Program-made: the position numbers and the translations under genes
NCBI GenBank assembly: GCA_014803435.1
Contig: JACYFD010000001.1
Location: 1,116,001-1,180,000 of the forward strand
Direction of reading: 5' to 3'
Length of the DNA stretch: 64,000 nt
DNA from: Cellulosimicrobium terreum
Lineage (GTDB): Bacteria; Actinomycetota; Actinomycetes; Actinomycetales; Cellulomonadaceae
In this document: in pieces, positions 8,926 through 33,494 of the stretch
Numbering within the stretch: position 1 is the stretch's first letter
How the letters are laid out: every line of letters starts with the position of its first letter
Notes under the pieces: model-generated
Seen by the model: only the letters and a program-made list of their open reading frames with translations
Databases searched by the model: none
What the model was told of the DNA's origin: nothing

Positions 8926-10004
8926 GCTCCGACGCGGACCCGGTCCGCACGACCCGGCGACGACCGGCCGTCGTCCTCGGGGCGGCGCTCGTCGCGCTCG
9001 TCGTGGTTGCGGTCGGTGGCGTCCTCGCCGTCGCGCGGCCGTGGGAACCGGTGACGGGTACCGAGATCTCCGTGACGGGTGACGTGCGGGTCCACGACCC
9101 GGCGCTCGTCGTCGGGGCCCCGGGCGAGCCGTGGTTCGTCTACTCGACCGGCGACGTGCGCGTGGGCTTCGGCGCACCACAGGTCCGCCGGTCCGACGAC
9201 GGGGGCCGCACCTGGGAGGACGCCGGCACCGCCTGGGACGCGAGCGGGGACCCGGAGTGGGTGCGCGACGAGATCGACGGCGTGGAGAACTACTGGGCGC
9301 CGGCCGTCGTCGAGCACGACGGCACCTGGTACCTCTACTACTCGGCGTCGACGTTCGGGTCGAACGACTCGGGGATCGGCGTCGCCACCGGATCGACGGT
9401 CGACCCCGCCGACCCCGACTACGGCTGGACGGACCAGGGCGTCGTCGTCCGTTCACGCCCGGGCGAGGACAACTTCAACGCGATCGACCCCACCGTCGTC
9501 GAGGACGCGGACGGTGAGCCGTGGCTGTACTTCGGCTCGTTCTGGGGCGGTGTCCAGGCGGTCCGGGTCGAGTGGCCGAGCGGGAAGCCGGTCGCCGGGG
9601 CGGAACCGGTCACGGTCGCCTCCCGCGCGGGCGTCCCGAACAACCCGATCGAGGCGCCCGCGCTGCTCGAGCGCGACGGGTGGTACTACCTCTTCGTGTC
9701 GTGGGACTCGTGCTGCCGCGGCACGGACTCGACGTACCGCATCGCGGTCGGCCGTTCGCGCGACGTCTCCGGTCCGTTCCTCGACGAGGAGGGGGTGGAC
9801 ATGGCGCTCGGTGGTGGGACGGAGCTGCTCGCGTCGGACGAGTGGATGGTCGGGCCCGGCGGGCAGTCCACCGCGCGGGACGAGGGCGGCGACGTCCTCG
9901 CGTTCCACTACTACGACGCGCGCGAGGGCGGCGACTTCAGGCTCGCGCTGCGGGAGCTCGGCTGGACCGAGGACGGCTGGCCCCGCGCCGCGACGACGGG
10001 CTGA
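8922..10004 (+). CDS. GH43 arabinan endo-1,5-alpha-L-arabinanase-like enzyme with N-terminal membrane/secretion segment
   Basis: A 360-residue protein. A basic N-terminus (RTTRRR) precedes a long hydrophobic segment (residues ~15-37) and then a GH43 propeller. VRVHDPALVV carries the base Asp (~59), EDNFNAIDPTVVED the second Asp, and PNNPIEAPALLERDGW the likely acid Glu. The motifs NYWAPAVVEHDGTWYLYYSA and FVSWDSCCRGTDSTY are characteristic of endo-arabinanase-like GH43. The hydrophobic segment lacks a clear cleavage site, so it may stay membrane-anchored facing outward. GTG at 8922 overlaps the GH51 stop. It probably shortens arabinan at the cell surface. It lacks the C-terminal module shared by the four larger secreted enzymes. 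Confidence 0.87.
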   Translation: MSSDADPVRTTRRRPAVVLGAALVALVVVAVGGVLAVARPWEPVTGTEISVTGDVRVHDPALVVGAPGEPWFVYSTGDVRVGFGAPQVRRSDDGGRTWEDAGTAWDASGDPEWVRDEIDGVENYWAPAVVEHDGTWYLYYSASTFGSNDSGIGVATGSTVDPADPDYGWTDQGVVVRSRPGEDNFNAIDPTVVEDADGEPWLYFGSFWGGVQAVRVEWPSGKPVAGAEPVTVASRAGVPNNPIEAPALLERDGWYYLFVSWDSCCRGTDSTYRIAVGRSRDVSGPFLDEEGVDMALGGGTELLASDEWMVGPGGQSTARDEGGDVLAFHYYDAREGGDFRLALRELGWTEDGWPRAATTG

Positions 10005-18400: not shown

Positions 18401-19348
18401 AACGTCACCGACGCCCGCTCGATCATCGAGGGCGCGTACGCGAAGGACTGGTCGAGCTACACGCTCGAGCTCGACGCCCGCAAGACGTCCGGGTCCGAGG
18501 GCTTCCTCGTCGGCTTCGCCGCCGGCGGCCCGAACGACTTCTACTGGTGGAACCTCGGCGGGTGGAACAACACGCGTCAGGCGCTCCAGCGGGCGGACGG
18601 CGGCAGCGCGAACGAGGTCGCCGCGCTCGAGAACAGCAGCATCGAGTCCGGGCAGCCGTACCACGTGAAGGTCGTCGTCGAGGGCTCGACGATCGAGCTC
18701 TACCTCGACGGCGAGCTGCAGATCTCCTACGAGCAGCCGGCCAAGAAGTCGCTCTACCAGGTCGTCACGCGTGACGACGACACGGGCGACGTGGTGGTCA
18801 AGGTCGTCAACCCGACCACGACCGCGGCGCGCACGCAGGTGCACGTCGAGGGCCTGACCGGCGGCGCCGCGATCGGCGCGGAGGCCACCGTCACGGAGAT
18901 GGTGGGTGCACCGTCGGACACGAACACCAAGGCCGACCCCGAGGCGCTCGTCCCGGTGGAGCGGACCCTGACCGGGGTGGGGGACGAGTTCTCCTACGAG
19001 TTCCCGGCGAGCTCGATCACCTTCGTGCGGCTGCACGAGTCGGCGACGCCCGTCGCCGAGCTCGACCTCGAGGTCACGGCGCAGCCGCGCTGCCTCGCGG
19101 GCAAGGCATACGTGGCGGTCCGCGCGACGAACGGTGAGGACGTCCCGGTCGACGTCGAGCTCGCCACGTCGTACGGCACGAAGACCTTCGCGGACGTGGC
19201 TCCCGGCAAGAACGGGTACCAGTCGTTCGCGGTCCGCGCGACCTCCGTCCCGGCGGGCTCGGTGACCGTCACCGGCTCGGGCGTCGTCGACGGTGCGGAG
19301 GTCACGACGCCGTACGACGTCGCGTACGACGCGCTCGACTGCGGCTGA
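15446..19348 (+). CDS. secreted multimodular alpha-L-arabinofuranosidase, GH51 (plant/extracellular type)
   Basis: A 1300-residue secreted enzyme. The order is: signal peptide (cut near ALAA, residue 49); an LamG/3-keto-glycoside-hydrolase-like sandwich (~53-250); a ~130-residue beta domain; the GH51 region (~391-930) with a CBM4_9-like insert (~430-590); a second sandwich domain (~925-1110) inserted before the GH51 C-terminal beta domain; and the two-cysteine module (~1203-1300). KYIGLGNEENTH carries the acid/base Glu (~747) and VFLGEYASRG the nucleophile Glu (~833). FYEDINYAADGGLYAELVRN is typical of extracellular GH51. It is predicted to strip arabinose from polymers outside the cell. GAGGAGAGG before the ATG fixes the start, and the paired operators at 15356/15390 precede it. 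Confidence 0.92.
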   Translation: MERRPSSPPRTGARRPRLRPAAAGMLSVTLAAVGALAVGVPTAGPALAAEPDLPDGAWLDPFDGTALGADWTVVNPAPEALTVADGELTLTSQTGDTYQDSNTAKNLVMLDVPDGDFTLVTHVEAPVTKVFQGAGLIAWQDIDNYVRSGLTFVGDLAPSGRAIENDVESGGAFTANAFTDRPGSTAETLRMQRTGDVIATSYWDGDSWEGAGSTTIDFPITQVGVYALAAQDGTTHAASFDYVALDAAEGADQVPDGTFTLSGSGDQRYLVATDDGLALDDERPTSTVALAATAVDGTEGTSPVTLAADDRPVVLSGQRLALADAGADPVELRITDAGGGKVWLRSAADPELYVGVRAEDGALELGSREAATKLTVSAVSSADHEITVDLAGERTEMSDELYGIFYEDINYAADGGLYAELVRNRSFEFNNQDNGSFNGLTAWSAANRGGATATTQVVNDDGRLNATNRNYLNLTTTGAGAGVRNAGYNTGQFVEEGESYDFSVWARSATAQDLTVRVEDNAGTTAYATGTVAVDGSNTWKQYAVTIEATGTTNAGRLALLSGAAGTVAVDQVSLFPQDTWVGAVNGKSPLRKDLAEKIAALNPQFLRFPGGCVTNVGTFDTYEESGFTDRRRTYQWKETIGPVEERATNWNFWGYNQSYGIGYLEYFEFAEDMGATPLPVVSVGANGCGSTIPEMTDPVQIQRWVDDTVDLIEFANGDVTTEWGAVRAGLGHPEPFGLKYIGLGNEENTHTFEANFPAFRDAIAEAYPEIEIISNSGPDDTGARFDELWEFNREQDVDMVDEHYYNDPSWFLENDDRYDSYDREGPQVFLGEYASRGNTFANALAEASFMTGLERNSDVVRLASYAPLLANESYVQWSPDAIWFDNDESWGSVNYYVQQMFSANVGDQVVPSTHTGPPAEGATVDGGVFLSTWSTAAQYDNVSVTDNASGDVLFSDDFEAGADQWEPQSGTWAAQDGAYVQSATNVTDARSIIEGAYAKDWSSYTLELDARKTSGSEGFLVGFAAGGPNDFYWWNLGGWNNTRQALQRADGGSANEVAALENSSIESGQPYHVKVVVEGSTIELYLDGELQISYEQPAKKSLYQVVTRDDDTGDVVVKVVNPTTTAARTQVHVEGLTGGAAIGAEATVTEMVGAPSDTNTKADPEALVPVERTLTGVGDEFSYEFPASSITFVRLHESATPVAELDLEVTAQPRCLAGKAYVAVRATNGEDVPVDVELATSYGTKTFADVAPGKNGYQSFAVRATSVPAGSVTVTGSGVVDGAEVTTPYDVAYDALDCG

Positions 19349-19355
19349 CCCGCCC

Positions 19356-19416
19356 GCCGAGAAGTGAGGATCCGCCCCTGATCGGACCGATCCGGGGGGG
19401 ATCCTCACTTCTCGGC
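19356..19416 (+). terminator. 61-bp near-perfect palindrome downstream of the GH51 gene
   Basis: An 18-bp perfect stem begins GCCGAGAAGTGAGG (19356-19373) and closes at 19399-19416. It continues inward with CCCC/GGGG and GATCGG-a-CCGATC, broken only by two mismatches. It starts 8 bases after the stop codon. It is long for a terminator and belongs with the related hairpins at 23766 and 28958. Confidence 0.75.
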
Positions 19417-19537
19417 ACCAGCTCGAGCCCTCGTGGCCGGTCCGACGGGCCACGAGGGCAGCTTCCCGACCACCGCACCCCCTGCACCCCGCCTGCACCA
19501 CCTGCACCGCCTGCACGACCTGACCCGAGGAGCAACG

Positions 19538-22500
19538 ATGCACCCGCCGTTCACTGGCCGTCCCGGCCGTCGTACCCGCCGCAGTCCCGGCCCCGGCCGC
19601 AGGCCGGGAGCGACCGCGAGGTTCGCCGCGCTCGCCGCAGCCACCGCCCTGGCCGTGACCGCCTGGGCGCCCACCGCCGTGGCGGCCGACGCGCTCGCCG
19701 ACCCCGTCCTCGACCTGTCGTTCGAGGGTGACGTGTCCGACGCCGGGTCGCTCGCCCACCCGGTGACCTTGCGGGGGCACGCCGGGTCCGCGCCGACCGG
19801 CTACGCCTTCGTCGACGGCGTCACCGACGGGACGCAGGCGCTGCGCCTCACCGGGAACACCTACCTCGACCTCGGGACGTCCACCGCGCTCCAGCCGGAG
19901 GACCTCACGCTCTCGTTCTGGATGGAGCCGAGCGGGAAACTCTCCGGCGAGCACCTCGTCACGTGGAACAAGGGCGCCTACAACTCGGACGGCTGGTACG
20001 TGTCCTCGGAGTCCGACACGGTGCCGCTCTCCATCTCGATCGGCCCTGCGTCGGGTCAGCCCTACAAGGTGCGCGTCGCGAGCTCTGACCGCGCGGCGTT
20101 CTTCCCCGCGGACACGTGGACGCACGTCGTCGTCACGTACGACCACACCACGAAGGACGTCGCCTTCTACCGCAACGGGGAGAAGGTGCCGTCCACCGTC
20201 GCCAACGCGGTCGGCGGCACCGCGACGGGCGTCCTCGGCTCCGACCCCGCGCTCCCCAAGACCATCGGGTTCAACGGCCCGCAGTACAACGGCGGCTACC
20301 TCGTGGCCGCACTCGACGAGTACCGCGTGTACGACGACGTGGCCGGCCTGGCGGACGTCGTCGGGCTCTACGAGGAGTCGGGCCGCGAGATCGACCGCGA
20401 CGCGGTCGCCGAGGACGACGCGGACGGCCTGTCCCTGCCCGAGCGCGCGACCGTCGCGCTCGTGCTGCCGGCCGCCGGGTCGCGCGGGTCGACCGTCACG
20501 TGGCAGTCGTCCGACCCCGGCGTCGTCGACACCGACGGCACCGTCACCCGCCCGGCGCTCGGCGAGGACGACGCCCACGTCACCCTGACCGCAACCGTCC
20601 GCTATCTCGACGGAGACCCTGTGGCCCGCACCTTCGACGTCCTCGTGCCCGCGCTCGTGGACGAGACCCCGCTCGAGGACACCACGCTGCCCTCGGTGCT
20701 CCTCTCCGACGACTTCCTGCAGAACGCCGCGGGCAAGGAGCACGAGTACCTCCTGAGCCTCGACTCGGAGAAGTTCCTCTACGAGTTCTACAAGGTCGGC
20801 GGGCTCACGCCGACGACCCCGACGGGCTACGCCGGCTGGGAGCGGAGCAACGCGGTGAACTTCCGCGGGCACGCGTTCGGCCACTACATGTCGGCGCTCG
20901 CGATGTCGTACTCGTCCACGCCGGACCAGGCGACCAAGGACGCGCTGTTCACCGAGATCGAGGAGGCGGTCGGGGGGCTCGCGCGCGTCCAGGACGCCTA
21001 CGCCACCGCCCATCCCGGCTCGGCGGGCTACGTGTCCGCGTTCCGCGAGTCGATCCTCGACCAGGTGCAGGGCACCGGGACGTCCGACGAGAACGTCATC
21101 GTGCCCTGGTACAACCTGCACAAGGTGCTCGCGGGCCTGCTCGACGTCGCCGAGTACGTCGACGGGCCGGTCGGCGACGAGGCGCTCGCGGTCGCGACCG
21201 ACTTCGGCCTGTACGTGGAGGGTCGCGTCTCGGAGCTCGACGACACGAGCGTCATGCTCGGCACCGAGTACGGCGGCATGAACGAGGCCCTCTACGAGCT
21301 GTTCGACCTCACGGGCGACGTCCGGATCAAGGACGCAGCCCAGGCGTTCGACGAGGTCACGCTCTTCCGTCAGCTCGCGGCCGGGCAGGACGTCCTGCCC
21401 GGCAAGCACGCCAACACGCAGATCCCCAAGCTGCTCGGCGCGCTCAAGCGCTACCGCGTCTTCACCCAGAACCCGGAGTACTACGCGCTCCTCACGCAGG
21501 CCGAGAAGGACGAGCTGCCGATGTACCTCGCGGCGGCGGAGAACTTCTTCGACATCGTCGTGGACGACCACACGTACGTGACCGGGGCGAACAGCCAGGC
21601 GGAGCACTTCCACGAGCCCGGCTCGCTGCACCAGTACGCGGACGAGCAGGGCGCCGCGCGCAACGCCGAGACGGCCGAGACGTGCAACGAGTACAACATG
21701 CTCAAGCTGTCGCGCGAGCTGTTCAAGCTGAGCAAGGACGTGCGGTACGCGGACTACTACGAGAACGCGTTCATCAACACGATCCTGTCGTCGCAGAACC
21801 CGGAGACGGGCACGACCACCTACTTCAACCCCATGGGGTCGGGCTACCACAAGGTGTTCAACCTGCCGTTCACCGAGTTCTGGTGCTGCACGGGGACGGG
21901 CATGGAGAACTTCTCCAAGCTGGGCGACTCGATCTGGTTCACCGGCCAGGGCTCGGTGTGGGTGAACATGTTCTTCTCCTCGACGTTCGACCACGCGGAG
22001 CAGAACCTGCGCGTGACCCAGGAGGCGAACCTGCCGAACGAGGACACCGTGACGTTCAGCGTCGAGGCGCTCGACGGCGGGGCGGTCGCGGAGGGCGCGA
22101 CGCTGCGGCTGCGCGTGCCGTCGTGGGCGGCGGGCGACGTGTCGCTCGAGGTGAACGGGTCCGCGGTCGAGCCCGTGGTGTCGCGCGGGTACGTCGTGCT
22201 GCCCGTCGCCGCGGGAGACGAGATCCGGTACACGATGCCGATGGAGGTGTCCGTCGTCGACACCCCGGACAACCCGTACTTCGTCGCGTTCCGCTACGGC
22301 CCGGTCGTGCTGTCGGCGAACCTGGGCGACGTCCCGGAGCCGGCCTCGCAGGGCACGGGCATCCTCGTGCGCTCCTCCACGCGCGACGAGGACGCGCAGA
22401 CCACGATCACCGCCGCGAACATGGGCGCGGACGAGTGGAAGGAACGTATCGCCGAGAACCTCGTGCGCGTCGAGGACGCTGCCGACGGTCGGGTACAGCT

Positions 22501-23743
22501 CCGGCTGCGCAACACGGCGGACGGCGAGGACCTGGTGTTCACGCCCCACCACACCAACTGGGACGTGACGTACGGGCTCTACCTCAACCTCGACGAGCCC
22601 GACTCCGCGGCATCGCAGGAACGGATCCTGCGGGCCAAGCAGGAGCTGCGCGACGTCGACCGCACCGTGGACGAGCTCACGAGCTTCGACAACAACAACT
22701 TCGAGAACGCGAAGAACCTCAAGCAGAGCGGCTCGTCGGTCGGAGCGTTCAACGGCCGCCAGTTCCGGCACGCGAACGGCACGGGGTGGTTCAGCTACGA
22801 CCTCATGATCGACCCGTCCTCCGCGACCAACCACCTCGGGGTCTCCCTCTACTCGGGGGACCAGGGCCGCACGTTCGACGTGTACGTGAACGACGAGAAG
22901 CTCAAGACCGTCACCACGGTCGCGGACGCCCCGGACAAGGACGCCCAGGGCTTCTACGTCGACTCGACCGAGCTCCCCGCGAAGTACCTGGAGGTCGGGG
23001 ACGGCACGCGCTGGAAGGTCGACAGCGCGGGGGAGCACGTCCTGGACGACGACGGCGAGCGGATCCCCGTCGTCACCGTGCGGTTCCAGGCCACGGGAGG
23101 CTGGGCGGGCGGCGTGTTCGGGCTGCGGCTCGACCGCGCGGCGTCGTACGACGCGACGCCGGGGCTGTCCGCGCTCGCGTTCGACACGGGCACGCTCGCT
23201 CCCGCGTTCGATCCCGCGACGACGGACTACACGCTCACGGTTCCCGAGGGCACGACGAGCGTCGTGCTCGACGCCGACCCGCACGTGCCGAGCGGGCTGG
23301 TCCGTGTCGACGGGGTGCTGGTCGACGACACCCAGGGCCGCGTCGTCGGGCTCCCCGAGGACGGCACGGCGCGGACGGTCGAGGTCGTCGGCGTGGCTCA
23401 GGACCACGAGACGGCGACGACCTACACGGTCGAGCTCGTGCCGGGCGCGGTCGTGCCCGAGCCGGAGGTCCCGCTCGACGTCGTGGTCTCGCCGCGCTGC
23501 ATGGCGGGCAAGGCGTACGTCGCCGTTCGGGCGACGAACGTCGGTGACGTGCCGGCTGACGTGAGCGTCACGACGCCGTTCGGGTCGAAGTCGTTCGCCG
23601 GTGTGGCACCTGGCAAGAACGGCTACCAGTCGTTCGCGGTGCGTGCGACGTCGGTCGCCGCCGGTGAGGTCACGGTGACGGGCACGGCGGGCGACCTCAC
23701 GAGCGCGGTCGAGGTCGCGTTCGACGGGCTCGACTGCGGCTGA
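19538..23743 (+). CDS. secreted GH127/GH146-type beta-L-arabinofuranosidase (DUF1680), multimodular
   Basis: A 1401-residue secreted protein. A signal peptide ends near AVAA (residue ~49). It is followed by an LamG-like sandwich (~55-280) and an atrophied bacterial Ig repeat (~290-385). The (alpha/alpha)6 catalytic domain (~390-800) and beta domains follow, then a cadherin-like sandwich (~1205-1305) and the two-cysteine module (~1310-1401). The zinc/cysteine catalytic set of GH127 is visible: ETCNEYN gives Glu714 and Cys716, and FWCCTGTG gives Cys783-Cys784, one of which should be the nucleophile. Such enzymes remove beta-L-arabinofuranose from plant hydroxyproline-arabinosides or pectin side chains. 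GAGGAG at 19527-19532 supports the ATG. No operator pair precedes it, so it may be read from upstream or an unseen promoter. Confidence 0.9.
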   Translation: MHPPFTGRPGRRTRRSPGPGRRPGATARFAALAAATALAVTAWAPTAVAADALADPVLDLSFEGDVSDAGSLAHPVTLRGHAGSAPTGYAFVDGVTDGTQALRLTGNTYLDLGTSTALQPEDLTLSFWMEPSGKLSGEHLVTWNKGAYNSDGWYVSSESDTVPLSISIGPASGQPYKVRVASSDRAAFFPADTWTHVVVTYDHTTKDVAFYRNGEKVPSTVANAVGGTATGVLGSDPALPKTIGFNGPQYNGGYLVAALDEYRVYDDVAGLADVVGLYEESGREIDRDAVAEDDADGLSLPERATVALVLPAAGSRGSTVTWQSSDPGVVDTDGTVTRPALGEDDAHVTLTATVRYLDGDPVARTFDVLVPALVDETPLEDTTLPSVLLSDDFLQNAAGKEHEYLLSLDSEKFLYEFYKVGGLTPTTPTGYAGWERSNAVNFRGHAFGHYMSALAMSYSSTPDQATKDALFTEIEEAVGGLARVQDAYATAHPGSAGYVSAFRESILDQVQGTGTSDENVIVPWYNLHKVLAGLLDVAEYVDGPVGDEALAVATDFGLYVEGRVSELDDTSVMLGTEYGGMNEALYELFDLTGDVRIKDAAQAFDEVTLFRQLAAGQDVLPGKHANTQIPKLLGALKRYRVFTQNPEYYALLTQAEKDELPMYLAAAENFFDIVVDDHTYVTGANSQAEHFHEPGSLHQYADEQGAARNAETAETCNEYNMLKLSRELFKLSKDVRYADYYENAFINTILSSQNPETGTTTYFNPMGSGYHKVFNLPFTEFWCCTGTGMENFSKLGDSIWFTGQGSVWVNMFFSSTFDHAEQNLRVTQEANLPNEDTVTFSVEALDGGAVAEGATLRLRVPSWAAGDVSLEVNGSAVEPVVSRGYVVLPVAAGDEIRYTMPMEVSVVDTPDNPYFVAFRYGPVVLSANLGDVPEPASQGTGILVRSSTRDEDAQTTITAANMGADEWKERIAENLVRVEDAADGRVQLRLRNTADGEDLVFTPHHTNWDVTYGLYLNLDEPDSAASQERILRAKQELRDVDRTVDELTSFDNNNFENAKNLKQSGSSVGAFNGRQFRHANGTGWFSYDLMIDPSSATNHLGVSLYSGDQGRTFDVYVNDEKLKTVTTVADAPDKDAQGFYVDSTELPAKYLEVGDGTRWKVDSAGEHVLDDDGERIPVVTVRFQATGGWAGGVFGLRLDRAASYDATPGLSALAFDTGTLAPAFDPATTDYTLTVPEGTTSVVLDADPHVPSGLVRVDGVLVDDTQGRVVGLPEDGTARTVEVVGVAQDHETATTYTVELVPGAVVPEPEVPLDVVVSPRCMAGKAYVAVRATNVGDVPADVSVTTPFGSKSFAGVAPGKNGYQSFAVRATSVAAGEVTVTGTAGDLTSAVEVAFDGLDCG

Positions 23744-23765
23744 CCCGTCCCGCGGGGTAGAACCG

Positions 23766-23816
23766 CGGTCCGCGAGGTAGAACCCCGTCATGACCGGGGT
23801 TCTACCTCGCGGACCG
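23766..23816 (+). terminator. 22-bp perfect hairpin downstream of the GH127 gene
   Basis: Arms at 23766-23787 and 23795-23816 pair perfectly around TCATGAC. The arm contains GAGGTAGAACCCC. A partial extra copy (GGGGTAGAACCGCGGTCC) lies just before, at about 23755-23771. It is probably the transcription terminator, and is a member of the repeat family discussed in the findings. Confidence 0.75.
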
Positions 23817-23857
23817 GGCAGCTCTCGCGCGGCATGCCGGCCATCTGGGGCTAGGCG

Positions 23858-23885
23858 TGTTAGCGCACACATGTTAGCGTTCACA
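23858..23885. promoter_or_regulatory. tandem operators TGTTAGCGCACACA and TGTTAGCGTTCACA
   Basis: Two operator copies lie directly end to end (23858-23871 and 23872-23885), about 65 bp before the double-GH43 gene. They match the pairs at 10065/10092 and 15356/15390 but with no spacing between them. Confidence 0.7.
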
Positions 23886-23949
23886 CTGTCGCCCGAGGAC
23901 GGGCGCGGACCCGGCGCTGCCGCCGGGGCACGACGACGAGGAGTCACCG

Positions 23950-26900
23950 ATGACCTCACGCCATGCTCGACTTCCCTCCCGCTCTCCTGACGCCCGACGG
24001 CCGGGCATGCCGGGCGACCGGCCGCTGCGCAACCGCTCCGGCCGCTCCGCGCTCGCCGGCCTGCTCGGTCTCGCGCTGGTCGGTCCGCTCGCGCCGGTGG
24101 CGGCCGCGACGGCGGCGACCGTGCCCGGCGCACCCGTTGCGACCGCACCCGTCGCGACCGCGCCCGTCGCGGCAGCGGCCCCGACGACCGACGGCCTGCA
24201 GCTCTGGCTCCCGCTCGACGAGACGACAGGCTCGACCGCGCACGACGCGTCGGGCAGCGGCCTCGACGCGACGCTCACCGGTTCCGGTGGCGGGTGGCGC
24301 GAGGGCCAGGGCCTGACCTTCGGCGGCGCCAACTACGTCGACCTGCCCGACGACCTGCTCGCCGGCTTCGACGCGGTCACCGTCAGCGCCGACGTCTGGG
24401 TCGACACGTCCCTGAGCGGCAACTACTTCTTCTACAACCTCGGCAACACGGCCGTCGGCAGCCCGCAGACGGGCGACGGCTACCTGTTCTCGTCGGGCAA
24501 CGCGAACTACCGCGCGTCGATCTCCGACCTCGCGTGGGGTCGTGAGCAGAATACCGCGAAGGCGCCCGCGGGCGCGCTCGCGCGCGGCGTCTGGAAGACC
24601 GTCACCTACACGCTGGGCGACGGCACGGGGACGCTCTACGAGGACGGCGCGCAGGTCGGCCAGAACGCGGCGGTCACGATCACGCCCGGCGACATCGGCG
24701 ACGGCACCACCACGGCCAACTCCCTCGGGAAGTCCGCGTACGCCGCGGACAACCTGTTCAAGGGCCGCATGAAGGACTTCCGGCTCTACGACCGCGCGCT
24801 CACCGCGGCGGAGGTCGCGGACATCTCGGCCGACGCCGCGCAGGACGCGGTCGCCGCAGACGCCGCCGCGCTCGACCTCGGCGACACGAGCGCCGTCGTC
24901 ACGGACCTCGTGCTGCCGGCCAAGGGCGTCGGTGGCTCCGCGGTCACGTGGACCACGTCCGACGCGGGCGTCGTCGCCGCCGACGGCACCGTGACCCGGC
25001 CCGCGGGCGAGGAGCCCGCGTCCGCCACGCTCACCGCGACCGTCGCGCTGCGCGGCGCCTCCGAGACCCGCACGTTCGACGTGACGGTGCTCCCGGGCGA
25101 CGGCGACCAGGCCAAGGCCGACGCCGCGGCCGCGGCGCTCGAGGTCGCGAACCTCGACGACGTGCGCGGCAACCTCGACCTGCCCACCACCGGGCTGCAC
25201 GGCGCCGACGTGGCCTGGGCCGCGTCGTCGGGCACGATCACCCCGGCCGGTGACGTCACGCGTCCCGCGCACGGGGAGGACGACGAGGACGTGACCCTCA
25301 CCGCGACGGTCACCGTCGGGGACGCGACCGCGACGCGCGAGCTGGTCGCGCACGTCCCGGCACTGCCGGAGCAGGAGGACCTCGAGGGGTACCTCTTCTC
25401 CTACTTCGTCGGGGAGGGCACGGCGACGGGGGAGCAGGTCTACTTCGGTCTCAGCCAGGGCAACGACGCGCTGAAGTACCAGAACCTCAACGACAACCAG
25501 CCGGTGCTCACGTCCGAGCTGGGGGAGAAGGGCCTGCGCGACCCGTTCATCATCCGCTCGCCCGAGGGCGACAAGTTCTACCAGATCGCGACCGACCTGC
25601 GGATCTACGACGGCAACGGCTGGGACGCCGCGCAGCGCCAGGGCTCACGCTCGATCATGGTGTGGGAGTCCACGGACCTGGTGACCTGGACCGACCAGCG
25701 GCTCGTCGAGGTGTCCCCGGAGACCGCGGGCAACACGTGGGCGCCCGAGGCGTACTACGACGACAGCATCGGCGCGTACGTCGTGTTCTGGGCGTCGAAG
25801 CTCTACGCGGAGGACGACCCGGGCCACACGGGCGACAGCTACAACCGCATGATGTACGCCACGACGCGTGACTTCGTGAACTTCTCCGAGGCGCAGGTCT
25901 GGATCGACCCGGGGTATTCGGTCATCGACTCGACCGTCGCGCAGGACGACGACGGCACGTACTTCCGGTTCACCAAGGACGAGCGGAACAACACCTCGTC
26001 GACGCCGTGCTCGAAGTTCATCCTCTCCGAGAAGGCGACCGAGCTGCGCTCGACCGACTACGACTTCGTCGCCGACTGCATCGGCAAGGCGAACTCCACC
26101 GGCCCGGGGATCAACCAGGGCGAGGGCCCGACGATCTTCCGCTCCAACGAGAACGACACGTGGTACCTGTTCATCGACGAGTTCGGCGGGCGCGGCTACG
26201 TGCCGTTCGAGTCGGACTCGCTCGACGCCGCCGAGTGGACCATGTCCACCGACTACGACATGCCGTCGCGCCCGCGCCACGGCACGGTGCTCCCGGTGAC
26301 GCAGGCCGAGTACGACCGCCTGCTCTCCACGTACCAGCCCGACGCGTTCGTCGAGTCCGTCGACGACGTCGCGGTCACCGTGCAGACCGGCTCGGCGCCG
26401 GTGCTCCCGGCGACCGTCACGGCGCACTTCGCGGACGGCTCCACCGGCCCCGCGGACGTCACGTGGGACGAGGTCGACCCGGCGTCGTACGCCCAGCCCG
26501 GCGAGGTCGTCGTCGAGGGGTCGCTGGCTCCCGGCACGAGCGTGCGCGCCAGGGCGGTCGTCACGGTGACCGACGACGCGGTGCCGGTCGAGGGCGTGAG
26601 CGTCACGCCCGCCTCGCTGGAGGTCGCGGTCGGCGGTGCACGACAGCTCACCGCGACGGTGACGCCCGCCAACGCGAGCGACCGGACCATCACGTGGGCG
26701 TCCGACGACGAGTCGGTCGTCACGGTGTCGGCAACCGGCCTCGTCAGCGCCGTCGCCGCCGGCCACGCCATGGTCACGGCCACGACCGCCGACGGGGAGC
26801 ACACCGCGTACGTCGCGGTCGAGGTGACGCAGGACGTGCCCGGGCTCGTCGTGCGCTACGCGCTCGACGAGACGAGCGGGACCTCGGCGGCCAACTCGGC

Positions 26901-28950
26901 CCCGGGAAGTGCGTTCGGTGCCGCGACCCTGACCGGCGGGGCGGCGTTCAGCGGGGACGAGGGCGTGACCCTCGACGGGACGAACGACTACGTCGACCTG
27001 CCCGACGACCTGCTCGCGGGTCTCGACGACGCCACGGTCAGCCTTGAGGTCAAGGTCGCCTCCGACCAGGCCACGCCGTACTTCATCTACGGCCTGGGCA
27101 ACTCCAGCGGCTCGGCCGGCAACGGCTACCTGTTCACCACGGGCAACGCGTACCGGACGTCCATCGCGACGGGCAACTGGACGACCGAGCAGACGGTCAC
27201 CAAGAACGCCAACCTGGCGCGCGGTGTCTGGAAGACCCTCACCTGGACCCTCGAGGGGACGACCGCGGTGCTCTACGAGGACGGCGTGGAGGTGGCCCGG
27301 CAGGCGAACGTCACGACCGACCCGGGCGACATCGGCGGCGGGACGACGCTCGCGAACTACATCGGCCGGTCGCTCTACTCCGGCGACAGGTACCTCAAGG
27401 GATCCGTGCGCGACTTCCGGGTCTACGACCGGGCGCTCGCGGCCGACGAGGTCTACGGGTTCGGGGCGAACCACACGGCGATCACGGGAGCCGAGCTCGA
27501 CGAGCTCAAGGTCCCGGCGATCGTGGACGACGCGAGCTCGACCGTCACCCTCCCGGTGGTGCCGGGCACGGACCTCACGGCCCTCGCCCCGGAGCTCACC
27601 GTCTCGCCGCTGGCGCGGGTCTCGCCCGAGAGCGGGGCGGTCCAGGACTTCACCGAGCCGGTCGAGTACACCGTGACCGGGCCGGACGGGTCGTCGCGCA
27701 CGTGGACGGTCCAGGCGAAGATCATGAACAGCCCGGCGCTCCCGGGGCTGTACGCCGACCCGAACATCGTGCAGTTCGGCGACATGTTCTACATCTACGC
27801 GACGACCGACGGGTACGCGGGCTGGGGCGGCAAGGACTTCTACGTGTGGAAGTCCGCCGACCTCGTCGACTGGGAGCGCTCGGAGGATCCGTTCCTCACG
27901 CTCGACGGCGCGAACGGGAACGTCCCGTGGGCGTCCGGGAACGCGTGGGCGCCGACGATCATCGAGCGCGACGGGAAGTACTACTTCTACTTCTCCGGTC
28001 ACAACCCGACGTACAACCGCAAGACGATCGGCGTCGCGGTGGCGGACAGCCCCGAGGGCCCGTTCACGGCGCAGCCGACCGCGATGATCACCAACGGTGA
28101 GGCCGTCACGTCGGGTCAGGCGATCGATCCCGCGGCCTTCCAGGACCCGGAGACGGGGACGTACTACCTGTTCTGGGGCAACGGCGGGGGCGGCCCGCTG
28201 TACGCCGAGCTGTCGGACGACATGCTCTCGGTGAAGCAGGACACGATCACCACGATCGAGGGCCTCCCCAGCTTCCGCGAGGGGGTCTTCCTCAACTACC
28301 GCGAGGGTCTGTACCACCTGACGTACTCGATCGACGACACCGGGTCGCCGAACTACAAGGTCGGCTACGCGACGTCGGACAGCATCGACGGACCGTGGAC
28401 CTCCCACGGCGTGATCCTGGAGAAGGACGAGAGCCAGGGGCTCCTCGGGACCGGGCACAGCTCGATCCTCAACGTCGCCGGCACGGACGACTGGTACATC
28501 GCGTACCACCGGTTCGGCATGCCGGGCGGTGACGGCAACCACCGCGAGACGACGATCGACCGCCTGACGTTCGGCGAGGACGGCCTCATGCAGAAGGTGA
28601 CGCCGACGCTCGAGGGCGTCGACCCGGTCGACGTCGCCCCGCAGCCCGAGGTGCAGCTCACCGTGGAGGCGACCCCGCGCTGCCTCGCCGGGAAGGCCTA
28701 TCTCGCGGTCCGCGCGACGAACGCGGGCGACGTGCCCGCCGACGTCACGCTGACGACGCCGTTCGGCGCGAGGGCGTTCGCGGACGTCGCACCGGGGAAG
28801 AACGCCTACCAGTCGTTCTCGGCCCGGGCAGCCTCGATCCCGGCCGGATCGGTCACGGTCACGGGCACGGCGACGCTCGTCGGCACGGACGGGCCCCAGG
28901 AGGTCACGACGTCGTACGACGTCGCGTTCGACGCGCTCGCCTGCGGCTGA
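23950..28950 (+). CDS. secreted double-GH43 enzyme with two LamG domains
   Basis: A 1666-residue secreted protein. The order is: signal peptide (hydrophobic ~34-53); LamG 1 (~80-285); two atrophied Ig-like repeats (~290-470); GH43 module 1 (~477-794); Big_4-like (~798-874) and Big_2-like (~881-961) domains; LamG 2 (~967-1171); an Ig-like linker (~1174-1257); GH43 module 2 (~1261-1557); and the two-cysteine module (~1568-1666). Module 1 has GLRDPFIIRSPEGDKF, SVIDSTVAQD and NQGEGPTIF. Module 2 has LYADPNIVQFGDMFYIYATT and QAIDPAAFQD. Both sets of acidic catalytic residues look intact, so two activities in one chain are likely, probably exo-acting arabinofuranosidases or arabinanases. GAGGAG precedes the ATG. 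Confidence 0.9.
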   Translation: MTSRHARLPSRSPDARRPGMPGDRPLRNRSGRSALAGLLGLALVGPLAPVAAATAATVPGAPVATAPVATAPVAAAAPTTDGLQLWLPLDETTGSTAHDASGSGLDATLTGSGGGWREGQGLTFGGANYVDLPDDLLAGFDAVTVSADVWVDTSLSGNYFFYNLGNTAVGSPQTGDGYLFSSGNANYRASISDLAWGREQNTAKAPAGALARGVWKTVTYTLGDGTGTLYEDGAQVGQNAAVTITPGDIGDGTTTANSLGKSAYAADNLFKGRMKDFRLYDRALTAAEVADISADAAQDAVAADAAALDLGDTSAVVTDLVLPAKGVGGSAVTWTTSDAGVVAADGTVTRPAGEEPASATLTATVALRGASETRTFDVTVLPGDGDQAKADAAAAALEVANLDDVRGNLDLPTTGLHGADVAWAASSGTITPAGDVTRPAHGEDDEDVTLTATVTVGDATATRELVAHVPALPEQEDLEGYLFSYFVGEGTATGEQVYFGLSQGNDALKYQNLNDNQPVLTSELGEKGLRDPFIIRSPEGDKFYQIATDLRIYDGNGWDAAQRQGSRSIMVWESTDLVTWTDQRLVEVSPETAGNTWAPEAYYDDSIGAYVVFWASKLYAEDDPGHTGDSYNRMMYATTRDFVNFSEAQVWIDPGYSVIDSTVAQDDDGTYFRFTKDERNNTSSTPCSKFILSEKATELRSTDYDFVADCIGKANSTGPGINQGEGPTIFRSNENDTWYLFIDEFGGRGYVPFESDSLDAAEWTMSTDYDMPSRPRHGTVLPVTQAEYDRLLSTYQPDAFVESVDDVAVTVQTGSAPVLPATVTAHFADGSTGPADVTWDEVDPASYAQPGEVVVEGSLAPGTSVRARAVVTVTDDAVPVEGVSVTPASLEVAVGGARQLTATVTPANASDRTITWASDDESVVTVSATGLVSAVAAGHAMVTATTADGEHTAYVAVEVTQDVPGLVVRYALDETSGTSAANSAPGSAFGAATLTGGAAFSGDEGVTLDGTNDYVDLPDDLLAGLDDATVSLEVKVASDQATPYFIYGLGNSSGSAGNGYLFTTGNAYRTSIATGNWTTEQTVTKNANLARGVWKTLTWTLEGTTAVLYEDGVEVARQANVTTDPGDIGGGTTLANYIGRSLYSGDRYLKGSVRDFRVYDRALAADEVYGFGANHTAITGAELDELKVPAIVDDASSTVTLPVVPGTDLTALAPELTVSPLARVSPESGAVQDFTEPVEYTVTGPDGSSRTWTVQAKIMNSPALPGLYADPNIVQFGDMFYIYATTDGYAGWGGKDFYVWKSADLVDWERSEDPFLTLDGANGNVPWASGNAWAPTIIERDGKYYFYFSGHNPTYNRKTIGVAVADSPEGPFTAQPTAMITNGEAVTSGQAIDPAAFQDPETGTYYLFWGNGGGGPLYAELSDDMLSVKQDTITTIEGLPSFREGVFLNYREGLYHLTYSIDDTGSPNYKVGYATSDSIDGPWTSHGVILEKDESQGLLGTGHSSILNVAGTDDWYIAYHRFGMPGGDGNHRETTIDRLTFGEDGLMQKVTPTLEGVDPVDVAPQPEVQLTVEATPRCLAGKAYLAVRATNAGDVPADVTLTTPFGARAFADVAPGKNAYQSFSARAASIPAGSVTVTGTATLVGTDGPQEVTTSYDVAFDALACG

Positions 28951-28957
28951 CCCACCC

Positions 28958-29040
28958 GCCGAGGTCGTACCGCAGTCCCCGAGGTAGTACCGGGGTCCGG
29001 ACTGCGGTACGACCTCGGCCGACTGCGGTACTACTTCGGC
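28958..29040. terminator. 21-bp perfect hairpin plus extra half-copy (alternative stems) after the double-GH43 gene
   Basis: Arms 28958-28978 and 28999-29019 pair perfectly. The arm reads GCCGAGGTCGTACCGCAGTC. The 20-base loop is itself another unit, CCGAGGTAGTACCGGGGTCC. A further inverted unit (GACTGCGGTACTACTTCGGC, ending at 29040) can pair with the loop or the first arm. The three-part layout allows two mutually exclusive folds. Confidence 0.7.
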
Positions 29041-29071
29041 ATTCCAGCAGCTCGACGAGGAGACGAACGAC

Positions 29072-31654
29072 ATGACAGCACGAACGACACACGGGCGACC
29101 GCGGGCCCGCGCGCTCGCCGTCGGGCTCGTGGGGGCGCTCACCGCGACCCTGCTGGGCGCCGCCACGGCGGCGCCGGCGTCCGCCGACGTCGGCGGGGCA
29201 GACGACGCCGGGCTGGTGGCCTGGTACCCGCTCGACGCGGCGAGCACGGCCGGCGGCCAGGCGGCGAACCTCGCCGACGGGTCGACGTTCGGACCGGCCA
29301 CGCTGGTCGGCGGGCAGGCGACGGCCGACGGCGCCACGCTCGACGGGACGGACGACTACGTCGACCTGCCCGACCACCTGCTCGCGGGCCTCACCGACGC
29401 CACGGTGAGCCTCGACGTCCTCGTCGCCACGGACCAGGCCACGCCGTACTTCATCTACGGACTGGGCAACAGCAGCGGCTCCAGCGGCAACGGCTACCTG
29501 TTCACGACGGGCAACGCGTACCGGACGTCGATCGCGACGGGGAACTGGTCCACCGAGCAGACCGTCACCAAGGGCTCGAACCTGACGCGCGGCGTCTGGA
29601 AGACGCTGACCTGGACGCTCTCGGGCACCACCGCCTCGCTCTACGAGGACGGCGTCCAGGTCAAGCAGTCCACCACCGTGACGACCGACCCGGGCCAGAT
29701 CGGCGCGGGCCAGACCACCGCGAACTACGTCGGGCGGTCGCTGTACTCGGGCGACAGGTACCTCAAGGGCCAGGTCCGGGACTTCCGGGTCTACGACCGC
29801 GCGGTCACCGCGGCAGAGGCGGCCGAGCTGGCGGCCGAGACCTCGACGTCGGCGGTCGACGCCGACGCCGCGGCACTCGACCTCGGCGACACGAGCGCGG
29901 TCACGGCCGACCTCGTGCTCCCGACGGCGGCGGCGCAGGGATCGCTCGTCACCTGGATGACGTCGGCCCCGGGGGTCGTGTCCGCGGCGGGCAAGGTCAC
30001 GCGCCCCGCTGCGGGCGAGGACGACGCGACGGCGACGCTGACGGCGCTCGTCAGCCGCGGTGCCGTCGCCCGCACGGCGACGTTCGAGGTCACCGTCCTC
30101 GCGCACCTCCTGCCCGGCGAGGCAGCGCAGTGGGACGCGGAGCACGCGTCGATCCCGAACCTCGGCGACGTGCGGGGGAACCTCACGTTCCCGGCGACGG
30201 GCCGGAACGGTTCGTCCCTCACGTGGATCAGCGCGGACCCCGACGTGGTCTCGCCCACCGGCGAGGTGACGCGGCCCGCGCACGGCGCGCCGGCCGCCGT
30301 CGTGCAGCTGACCGTCACGGCGTCCAAGGACGGCGCGACCGCGACGCACACCTATGACGCCACGGTCCGGCCCCTGCCGGCCGAGGCCGACTACGAGGGC
30401 TACTTCTTCCCCTACTTCGAGGGGGAGAGCACGGCCGACGGCGAGTCGATCTACTTCAGCGCGAGCAACGGCAACGACCCGCTCGACTGGATCGAGCTCA
30501 ACGAGGGCGAGCCGGTCCTCACCTCCGGGCTCGGCGAGAAGGGTCTGCGCGACCCGTTCGTCATCCGCTCGCCTGAGGGCGACCGGTTCTTCCTGCTCGC
30601 GACGGACCTGCGCATCTACGGCGGCAACAACTTCGGCAACGCGCAGGAGCGCGGGTCGCTGAGCCTCATGATCTGGGAGTCGACCGACCTGGTGCACTGG
30701 TCGGAGCAGCGCTCGGTCAAGGTGTCGAGCGACTACGCGGGCAACACGTGGGCGCCCGAGGCGTTCTACGACGCCCAGCGCGGCGAGTACATCGTGTACT
30801 GGGCGTCGGCCCTCTACCCGACGACGAGCACCACGGGTCGTCAGATCTCGACCAGCTACCAGCGCATGATGTACGCGACGACGCGCGACTTCGTGACGTT
30901 CAGCGAGCCGCAGGTGTGGATCGACGAGAAGCGCGGCAACGGGCTCGGCATGATCGACTCGTCGATCGTCGAGGACGAGGGCACGTACTACCGGTTCACC
31001 AAGGACGAGGCGTACATGATCCCGCGCCTGGAGAAGTCGACGGACCTGCGCTCGACCGACTGGGACCTCGTCGCCGAGAAGATCGGGTACGGCCAGCCGA
31101 ACCCGTGGGGCGGGACGCTCACGGCGGGCGAGGGCCCGACGGTGTTCAAGTCGAACACCGAGGAGAAGTGGTACCTGTTCGTCGACCAGCCGAGCTACCA
31201 CGGCGGTCAGGGGTACCTTCCGCTCGAGTCGACCGACCTCGACTCCGGCGTCTGGACGTCGGTCGACGCGCACCTGCCGAGCAGCCCGCGGCACGGCACG
31301 GTCCTGCCCGTCACGGCCGCGGAGCACGCCGCCCTGCTTGCCGCGTACGGCGACGAGCCGCCCGCGCCGGAGCTCGACCTCGCGGTCGACGTGACGCCGC
31401 GCTGCCTCGCCGGCAAGGCGTACGTGGCGGTAAGGGCGACCAACGGCGAGGACGTCCCCGTCGACGTCACGCTCTCCACGCCGTACGGCGAGAAGGCGTT
31501 CGCCGCCGTCGCGCCCGGCAAGAACGCCTACCAGTCGTTCGCCGTTCGTGCGGCGACCGTCGAGGCGGGCACCGTCACGGTGACGGGAACCACGGTGCAG
31601 GGCGGGACCGAGGTCCCGGTCGACGTCGCGTACGACGCGCTCGCCTGCGGCTGA
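29072..31654 (+). CDS. secreted GH43 enzyme with LamG and Ig-like domains
   Basis: An 860-residue secreted protein. The signal peptide ends near PASA (residue ~32). LamG (~48-250) is followed by two atrophied Ig-like repeats (~255-435), GH43 (~440-757) and the two-cysteine module (~767-860). The GH43 part has GLRDPFVIRSPEGDRFFLLA, GMIDSSIVEDEGTYY and TAGEGPTVFKSN, closely matching module 1 of the preceding double-GH43 protein. Its LamG, however, is closest to LamG 2 of that protein. It appears built by shuffling pieces of its neighbour. It lacks its own operator pair. GAGGAG lies just before the ATG. Confidence 0.9.
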   Translation: MTARTTHGRPRARALAVGLVGALTATLLGAATAAPASADVGGADDAGLVAWYPLDAASTAGGQAANLADGSTFGPATLVGGQATADGATLDGTDDYVDLPDHLLAGLTDATVSLDVLVATDQATPYFIYGLGNSSGSSGNGYLFTTGNAYRTSIATGNWSTEQTVTKGSNLTRGVWKTLTWTLSGTTASLYEDGVQVKQSTTVTTDPGQIGAGQTTANYVGRSLYSGDRYLKGQVRDFRVYDRAVTAAEAAELAAETSTSAVDADAAALDLGDTSAVTADLVLPTAAAQGSLVTWMTSAPGVVSAAGKVTRPAAGEDDATATLTALVSRGAVARTATFEVTVLAHLLPGEAAQWDAEHASIPNLGDVRGNLTFPATGRNGSSLTWISADPDVVSPTGEVTRPAHGAPAAVVQLTVTASKDGATATHTYDATVRPLPAEADYEGYFFPYFEGESTADGESIYFSASNGNDPLDWIELNEGEPVLTSGLGEKGLRDPFVIRSPEGDRFFLLATDLRIYGGNNFGNAQERGSLSLMIWESTDLVHWSEQRSVKVSSDYAGNTWAPEAFYDAQRGEYIVYWASALYPTTSTTGRQISTSYQRMMYATTRDFVTFSEPQVWIDEKRGNGLGMIDSSIVEDEGTYYRFTKDEAYMIPRLEKSTDLRSTDWDLVAEKIGYGQPNPWGGTLTAGEGPTVFKSNTEEKWYLFVDQPSYHGGQGYLPLESTDLDSGVWTSVDAHLPSSPRHGTVLPVTAAEHAALLAAYGDEPPAPELDLAVDVTPRCLAGKAYVAVRATNGEDVPVDVTLSTPYGEKAFAAVAPGKNAYQSFAVRAATVEAGTVTVTGTTVQGGTEVPVDVAYDALACG

Positions 31655-32248
31655 CACGGGCGGTCCCCGGACCGCCGCCTCGCGACGTCGCGCGATCAGC
31701 GCGAGCGTGTCGTCGTAGAGGCGGCGGGCGACCGCCTCGTCGTGGCTGGCGTCGGAGGACCGCGCGATGCGGCCACGGCTCACGTAGGAGCTGGTCGGCA
31801 CCTGGTGCGTGCCGTCGGCCAGCGCGGCGAGCCGGCGCGCGGACGCGGCCGCCGTGGACACGCGCGGGTGCAGCGCCACCACGGGGCCGATCCCGTGCCA
31901 GAGCAGGCGGAACCACGCGGGCTGGTGGCGGACGAGCCCCGTACCGGGCATGAGGCCCGGGTCGTAGGCGACGACCGTCGTCGCGGGCTCGCGTCGTGCG
32001 ACCTCGTAGGCCGTCAGCACGTTCGCGAGCTTCGACGTCGGGTACCGGCGCAGCGACGCGGCCGCACCGGGGCCGGGGACCCGGACCAGCTCGTCGAGGA
32101 CGACGGGCGGCATGCCGGTGCGCTCCACAGGGTCGTGGGCGCCGGACGACGTGACGACGAGCCGGTCGACGCTCGCCCGCGCCCGCAGCGCCTCCCAGAG
32201 CTGGACGTGCCCCACGTGGTTGACGGCGATCGTCAGCTCGATGCCGTC
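31655..32248 (-). pseudogene. short-chain dehydrogenase/reductase remnant (N-terminus lost, no own stop)
   Basis: On the minus strand the translated text GIELTIAVNHVGHVQLW, then DRLVVTSSGAH and YPTSKLANVLTAYEVARR, is the middle and active-site part of an SDR. The Tyr-x-x-x-Lys pair and the catalytic Ser strand are present. The NAD-binding Rossmann start (TGxxxGIG) is absent upstream of about 32248, where the frame passes into unrelated antisense sequence. Downstream the frame runs without its own stop into the reverse strand of the GH43 gene. Both ends are therefore damaged. It faces the TetR remnant, and the two meet at about 32243-32248. Confidence 0.8.
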
Positions 32249-32724
32249 ATCGTCGCGGACATCGCCGACGCCGCGGGTGTCGCACGGCGCACGGTCCACC
32301 GCTACGTCGCGGTGAAGTCGGACCTCGTGTTCGGCCACGAGCAGGCGGTCGTCGACGTCGTCGAGGAGGTCGTGGAGTCGGCTCCCGCGGACGCACCCCT
32401 GCGCGACGTCGTCCTGGGAGGTCTGCGTGTCCTGGCCGACCGGTGGCCGACGAGCCGTGACGAGGCCGTCGTCCGTGCCGAGGTGGTCGCCGGCTCGGCC
32501 GAGCTCGTGGAGCGGGACCTCGCCAAGCGAGCGCGCATGCGCGACCTCGTGGTCGCGTCGCTCGGACGTCTGCGACCCGACGCCCCGCACCTGGAGGTCG
32601 CGGTCTGGACCGAGGCGGGACTCGCGGCGTTCCACTCGCCCACGACGAGTGGGTCGCCGGGCGTGCGAGCCTCACCCAGGCCCTCGACGAGGCCCTCGGC
32701 TACCTCGGTGGGGCGTCAAATTGA
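32240..32724 (+). pseudogene. TetR-family regulator remnant (N-terminus lost, one frameshift)
   Basis: IVADIADAAGVARRTVHRY at about 32247-32310 is the recognition half of a TetR helix-turn-helix. An all-helical ligand domain follows (DEAVVRAEVVAGSAELVERD). The first ~25 residues expected of such a protein are missing. Near 32636 the coding frame changes: after AAFH the homologous tail AHDEWVAGRASLTQALDEAL continues one base out of frame, ending at TGA 32722-32724. A one-base loss explains this. A GTG at 32216 could start a short product, but without the frameshift repaired it would run on to about 32884 with a nonsense tail. Confidence 0.8.
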
Positions 32725-32891: not shown

Positions 32892-33494
32892 GTGACGACG
32901 ACTGCACGGCGGCTGCTGACCGCCGCACTTCTCGGGGGAGCGCTCGTGCTGCCCGCCACGGCAGCCGTAGCGGCAGACCCGGAACCGGGCAACGACGTGC
33001 GCGTCAACGTGGAGATCGGCGAGCTCGTGCACGACGACGCCCGGCTCGTCGTCGTGGGCGAGGGCCCGTTCACGGTCGGTGACGAGCTCACCGTGCTCGG
33101 GACGGACCTCGAGCCCGACGCGACGTACGAGGTGTGGCTGCACAGCGACCCCGTCCTCCTCGACTCCGTGACCACGGACGCCGACGGAGATGCCGAGCTG
33201 ACGGTCACGATCCCCGCCGGCACGGAGCCGGGGGAGCACCACGTGAGCGCGCTCTCGTCCGCCACGGGCGTCGAGGTCGCGTCCGAACCGTTCACCGTCG
33301 TGGCCGCCAGCACCGAACCGGGCGACGGCGGCAGCGGGTCCGACGGCACGGGCGGCGACGCCCAGGCGGGGTCCGGTTCGGACGGTCTCGCCACGACGGG
33401 TGCCGGGCTGACCGGGCTGGCCGTCCTCGCGGCGGTCGCCGTCGGGACGGGGCTGGTGCTGCGGCGTCGGGCGACGGGTCGCCACACGGCCTGA
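32892..33494 (+). CDS. small cell-wall protein with LAxTG sorting signal
   Basis: A 200-residue secreted protein. Signal peptide: RRLLTAALLGGALVLPATAAVA. It has one Ig-like beta domain (~28-140) rich in Asp and Val, a Gly/Ser/Asp spacer, then LATTGAG, a hydrophobic helix and an RRR tail. LAxTG is the sorting motif used with class E-type sortases of high-GC Gram-positives, so covalent attachment to peptidoglycan is expected. Function is unknown. GTG at 32892 is chosen because GAGG lies five bases upstream and it gives a clean signal peptide; the frame is open further upstream without a plausible signal. Confidence 0.8.
   Translation: MTTTARRLLTAALLGGALVLPATAAVAADPEPGNDVRVNVEIGELVHDDARLVVVGEGPFTVGDELTVLGTDLEPDATYEVWLHSDPVLLDSVTTDADGDAELTVTIPAGTEPGEHHVSALSSATGVEVASEPFTVVAASTEPGDGGSGSDGTGGDAQAGSGSDGLATTGAGLTGLAVLAAVAVGTGLVLRRRATGRHTA

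Follow-up and report, generated by a model that had tools for sequence, protein, structure and literature searches.

In the 64,000-nucleotide stretch of the Cellulosimicrobium terreum genome that we analysed (hereafter, the window), part of a short-chain dehydrogenase/reductase (SDR) gene on one strand runs directly into part of a TetR regulator gene on the other. How did two such partial genes come to be joined? The initial annotation of this DNA proposed that a deletion had fused a once-intact divergent pair, removing the promoter region and both N-termini. We compared the locus with its counterparts in the genus (17 genomes, among them the window genome, G000; Cellulosimicrobium sp. Marseille-Q4280, G013; and C. 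marinum NBRC 110994, G015), and the intact pairs found in congeners bear this proposal out: the window locus is very probably a pseudogene pair derived from an ancestral pair by one ~500-bp deletion and several smaller lesions.

Two gene remnants and their junction

The SDR remnant (31655..32248, minus strand) is orthologous to residues 109 to ~302 of the intact 304-amino acid SDR of one congener, G005, and corresponds to the C-terminal two thirds of the enzyme; the N-terminal Rossmann half, the start codon and the stop codon are missing. Its similarity to the orthologues (81–82% identity for G005 and G015, 75% for G013; E 1e-90 to 3e-99) is, like that of the TetR fragment (69–71% identity; E 2e-47 to 1e-51), far beyond chance. 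The remnant keeps the sequence YPTSK, shared with all three orthologues, which corresponds to YxxxK, the active-site motif of short-chain dehydrogenases/reductases. It has no Pfam match and lacks adh_short, the N-terminal Rossmann nucleotide-binding part, which is detected in the intact G005 SDR at residues 19–127 (51 bits). A 9-bp in-frame deletion (32108..32109, minus strand) removed bases kept in all three orthologues. As the initial annotation had noticed, the SDR frame has no stop at the end point of its orthologues (n = 3) and continues antisense into the neighbouring GH43 gene; since the third codon positions of the SDR are 91–96% G+C, antisense frames are open anyway and such run-on frames therefore mean little. 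The spacer between the GH43 and SDR genes, where the SDR stop codon was lost, is shortened to about 28 bp (31655..31682); it measures 170 bp in G005 and, in G013, where it leads to another gene of the sugar-degradation array, about 130 bp.

On the plus strand, homology to TetR starts at 32246-32249. The first frame of this remnant (32246..32634) begins at about residue 46 of the intact 200-amino acid TetR and misses the beginning of the domain that binds DNA: the TetR_N profile scores 19.9 bits (cut-off 24) and covers only profile positions 18–43 of 47, versus 42.8 bits in the intact G005 protein, and no complete N-terminal helix-turn-helix domain is found. The C-terminal domain is broken by a one-base frameshift, which had been noted near 32636 and which we place, as a gap relative to all three orthologues, at 32634/32635. 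The conserved C-terminus continues in another frame (32635..32724, plus strand) up to its own TGA (32722-32724).

Both remnants meet at a deletion junction (32246..32249), where the window lacks about 506 bp that are present in G005 (9031-9536 of locus L039). Relative to G005, the lost segment comprises SDR residues 1–108, a 44-bp control region with two palindromes, and TetR residues 1–46; the alignment joins SDR residue 109 straight to TetR residue ~46–47, with a clean gap and good homology on both sides. The deletion may have used 3–4 bases of microhomology at the junction, probably GTC or CGTC. The end of the minus-strand SDR homology at 32248 and the onset of the TetR homology agree with the abrupt starts originally read at about 32248 and 32247. 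The losses of the Rossmann half and of the promoter were also correctly recognized, as was an antisense overlap of a few bases; the TetR loss amounts to ~46 residues instead of the ~25 supposed, and the overlap is a single codon, 32246-32248, common to both remnants. It is almost certain that both genes are dead.

The intact pair and its surroundings in the genus

The intact divergent pair that the initial annotation expected in relatives occurs, in the same slot, in two of the 17 genomes: G005 (304-amino acid SDR and 200-amino acid TetR, 44 bp apart) and G013 (contig NZ_CALPBY010000008.1; 298 and 199 amino acids, 43 bp apart), these distances depending on the chosen start codons. The genes are orthologous to those of the window (75–81% identity for the SDR and 69% for TetR) and have the same orientation, but genes and control region are whole in these two genomes and deleted and frameshifted in the window. 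Within NCBIfam, the intact SDR comes closest to the subfamily NF004846 (PRK06197, oxidoreductase), at 85 bits far under the curated cut-off of 268; its best solved-structure relatives are light-dependent protochlorophyllide reductases, and its identity to cyanobacterial relatives is about 30–38%. The intact TetR best matches MftR (TIGR03968; 70 bits over residues 17–196, under the cut-off of 224.9). A tblastn search with the two intact TetRs found no such regulator beside more distant SDR homologues, at eight whole-genome SDR loci with 1.5-kb flanks and five of 50 contig loci.

The intergenic region of G005 and G013 contains two 14-bp palindromes of the form GTGNCAYRTGNCAC, 17 bp apart, one of the G013 copies having one mismatch; one copy overlaps the chosen SDR start. 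TetR regulators generally act through operators, and by this analogy the palindromes are putative TetR operators through which the regulator would repress the SDR gene. The window locus has neither the shared intergenic region nor the palindrome, and its whole genome has no exact site, compared with three in G005 (two at the pair), one in G013 (at the pair) and one in G015 (elsewhere). We also considered a genome-wide regulon that would have left orphaned operators. It found no support, and a regulator acting only locally is the simplest reading, because in each of the four genomes searched the one-mismatch motif was rarer than its backward control.

The slot is flanked, in the window and in G005, by a GH43 orthologue on one side and on the other by an NPCBM_assoc-type protein, followed by TrkA/KtrB. 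The GH43-type protein of the window (29072..31654, plus strand; Laminin_G_3, aBig_2 and Glyco_hydro_43) has an intact open frame. The gene to the left of the slot in G013 is a different member of the array, which carries the C-terminal segment of the GH43 gene, and the GH43 orthologue itself is about 4.6 kb more distant; G015 has an unrelated gene on this side. The same downstream gene follows in all four genomes that carry the pair or its remnants, and it borders the slot in other congeners too. It was suggested earlier that the loss was perhaps tied to the insertion of the sugar island. This is not supported: the array borders both intact pairs, with the GH43 orthologue itself adjoining that of G005; GH43 homologues occur in 16 of the 17 genomes; and the one genome with none (at E 1e-60), G015, has a deleted pair all the same. 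This removes a false lead: no connection between the loss and the sugar-degradation genes nearby is apparent.

The downstream protein (32892..33494, plus strand; weak NPCBM_assoc match) evolves fast, as its identity to the G005 protein is 54% beside a TrkA at 93%. In the sugar array (19047-31655), C-terminal segments of ~300 bp have 71–80% DNA identity to array genes of relatives, and recombination within the array could act on these common segments. An MFS-type transporter and, divergent from it, an ArsR-like regulator (both named by eye), located in G005 between the NPCBM_assoc-type gene and TrkA (L039, 5787-7759), forms a second variable pair beside the TetR/SDR pair: it is present in 10 genomes of the genus (G001, G002, G004-G007, G009, G011, G012 and G016) and absent from the window, G008, G010, G013 and G015 (it is broken in G003, and G014 was not placed).

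Probable repeated loss and a second deletion

Close SDR and TetR orthologues occur in four of the 17 genomes (the window, G005, G013 and G015). In 12 congeners (G001-G004, G006-G012 and G016) the pair is absent from the slot, with no clear remnant there; the slot pieces of G003 and G011 come from a contig end but span the slot, and G014 was not placed. Within these empty slots, the strong match was, in 11 of the 12, to the flank of the query, which holds the promoter region of the gene downstream (a match that was weak in G008), and the other matches were short, terminator-like or at chance level. In a tree of KtrB-TrkA (16 genomes, G014 having no match), built from a single 2.2-kb region adjacent to the slot, the four carriers do not group together, with a single clade rejected (p-AU 1.3e-41) and a minimum of four changes, a count that alone cannot tell gain from loss. 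Among the carriers, dS is 0.41–0.72 for the SDR and 0.41–0.54 for the flanking TrkA. An ancestral pair with repeated loss is favoured because of the same slot and this vertical-like divergence.

C. marinum (NZ_JAJBZH010000010.1; locus L038, 9477-10769) has a deletion of its own across this control region, distinct from that of the window. As in the window, one deletion removed both starts and the control region; unlike in the window, it has other breakpoints, measures about 278 bp in G005 coordinates, spares the Rossmann half of the SDR and lies in a genome without a GH43 match. The join connects SDR residue ~17/18 to TetR residue ~62. We examined whether both genomes share an ancestral short form and rejected this: the window keeps TetR residues ~47–61, lost in C. 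marinum, which keeps SDR residues ~18–108, lost in the window, and because each genome retains codons lost in the other, neither of the deletions can have arisen from its counterpart. The TetR remnant of C. marinum has no Pfam match. Its enzyme may still be made, because adh_short is still matched by the SDR (55.5 bits) and an in-frame GTG precedes the first retained codon by 39 bp; the surviving enzyme would then have a new N-terminus encoded by antisense TetR sequence.

The probability that two random deletions (506 and 278 bp) within the 1.56-kb locus both cover both starts is 0.077. A deletion hotspot is consequently not demonstrated, and neither a hotspot nor selection is needed. We find it doubtful that, in Cellulosimicrobium, the divergent control region is a site of recurrent and perhaps selected loss, as it would be if the operator region were a deletion hotspot or if removal of enzyme and regulator in one step were favoured.

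Probable decay of an ancestral pair and its alternatives

The genus ancestor would have had a TetR regulator and a divergent SDR with a shared control region of 43–44 bp, placed between GH43-type genes and the gene for a surface-protein-like product. In the window lineage, one deletion of ~500 bp with both ends inside coding sequences, perhaps at 3–4 bases of microhomology, would have taken not only the control region but also the enzyme's NAD(P)-binding half and the beginning of the regulator's DNA-binding domain. The one-base TetR frameshift, the 9-bp SDR deletion and the losses of the SDR stop and of the spacer on the GH43 side may have come before or after it. By our reconstruction, neither gene would be expected to yield a functional product.

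To the initial annotation, this loss looked recent. Branch dN/dS values for the SDR (three-point arithmetic on the window, G005 and G015; 188 codons) are about 0.28 for the window, 0.21 for C. marinum and 0.11 for G005, which hints at a slightly relaxed window branch with a mostly constrained history and fits, if loosely, a recent decay. TetR gave no sign of relaxation: over 111 codons, pairwise dN/dS is 0.30–0.41 with the window versus 0.30–0.47 among the others (pairwise SDR values with the window are 0.18–0.25). Such protein-like constraint would be explained by recent decay but also by retained function.

This last reading, by which the short forms are kept for a new role, for example as truncated proteins or antisense RNA, could also invoke the long open frames of both remnants across the junction. 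However, antisense frames stay open at this G+C content regardless, the frameshift and the absence of both the nucleotide-binding half and the beginning of the DNA-binding domain speak against working products, and the differing form in C. marinum means that there is no conserved short form; we hold a new role to be extremely improbable. An artefact of assembly or sequencing, with a palindromic control region collapsed and the genes whole in the living strain, is likewise very unlikely. Relatives do have tandem 14-bp palindromes in the stretch missing from the window, the assembly consists of 14 contigs, and a single-base gap is a typical error, which makes the frameshift the lesion most open to it. 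Yet, in G005 coordinates, both ends of the deletion fall within coding sequence, at distances from the palindromes of about 160 bp on the TetR side and 320 bp on the SDR side, the site lies inside a 1.22-Mb contig, two genomes have short forms with different junctions, and the 9-bp deletion and the losses of spacer and stop add to the picture of decay.

It is also very unlikely that the pair was not ancestral but acquired several times, with the short forms as incomplete acquisitions. Its patchy distribution would suit this, as would the minimum of four changes, which may be gains or losses, but in all four carriers it occupies the same slot and adjoins the same gene downstream, the SDR dS is near that of TrkA, and the internally deleted copies resemble remnants, not insertions.

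Decay of an ancestral pair remains our reading of the window locus. Among the listings and abstract openings covered by a literature search, no paper was evidently about this locus. Recurrent loss within the genus is its only slightly unusual point, the cause being otherwise ordinary decay. Since the pair occurs intact, partly lost or wholly lost within a single genus, the locus offers a clear case of the decay of a gene pair and illustrates one route by which an enzyme can be lost together with its local regulator.
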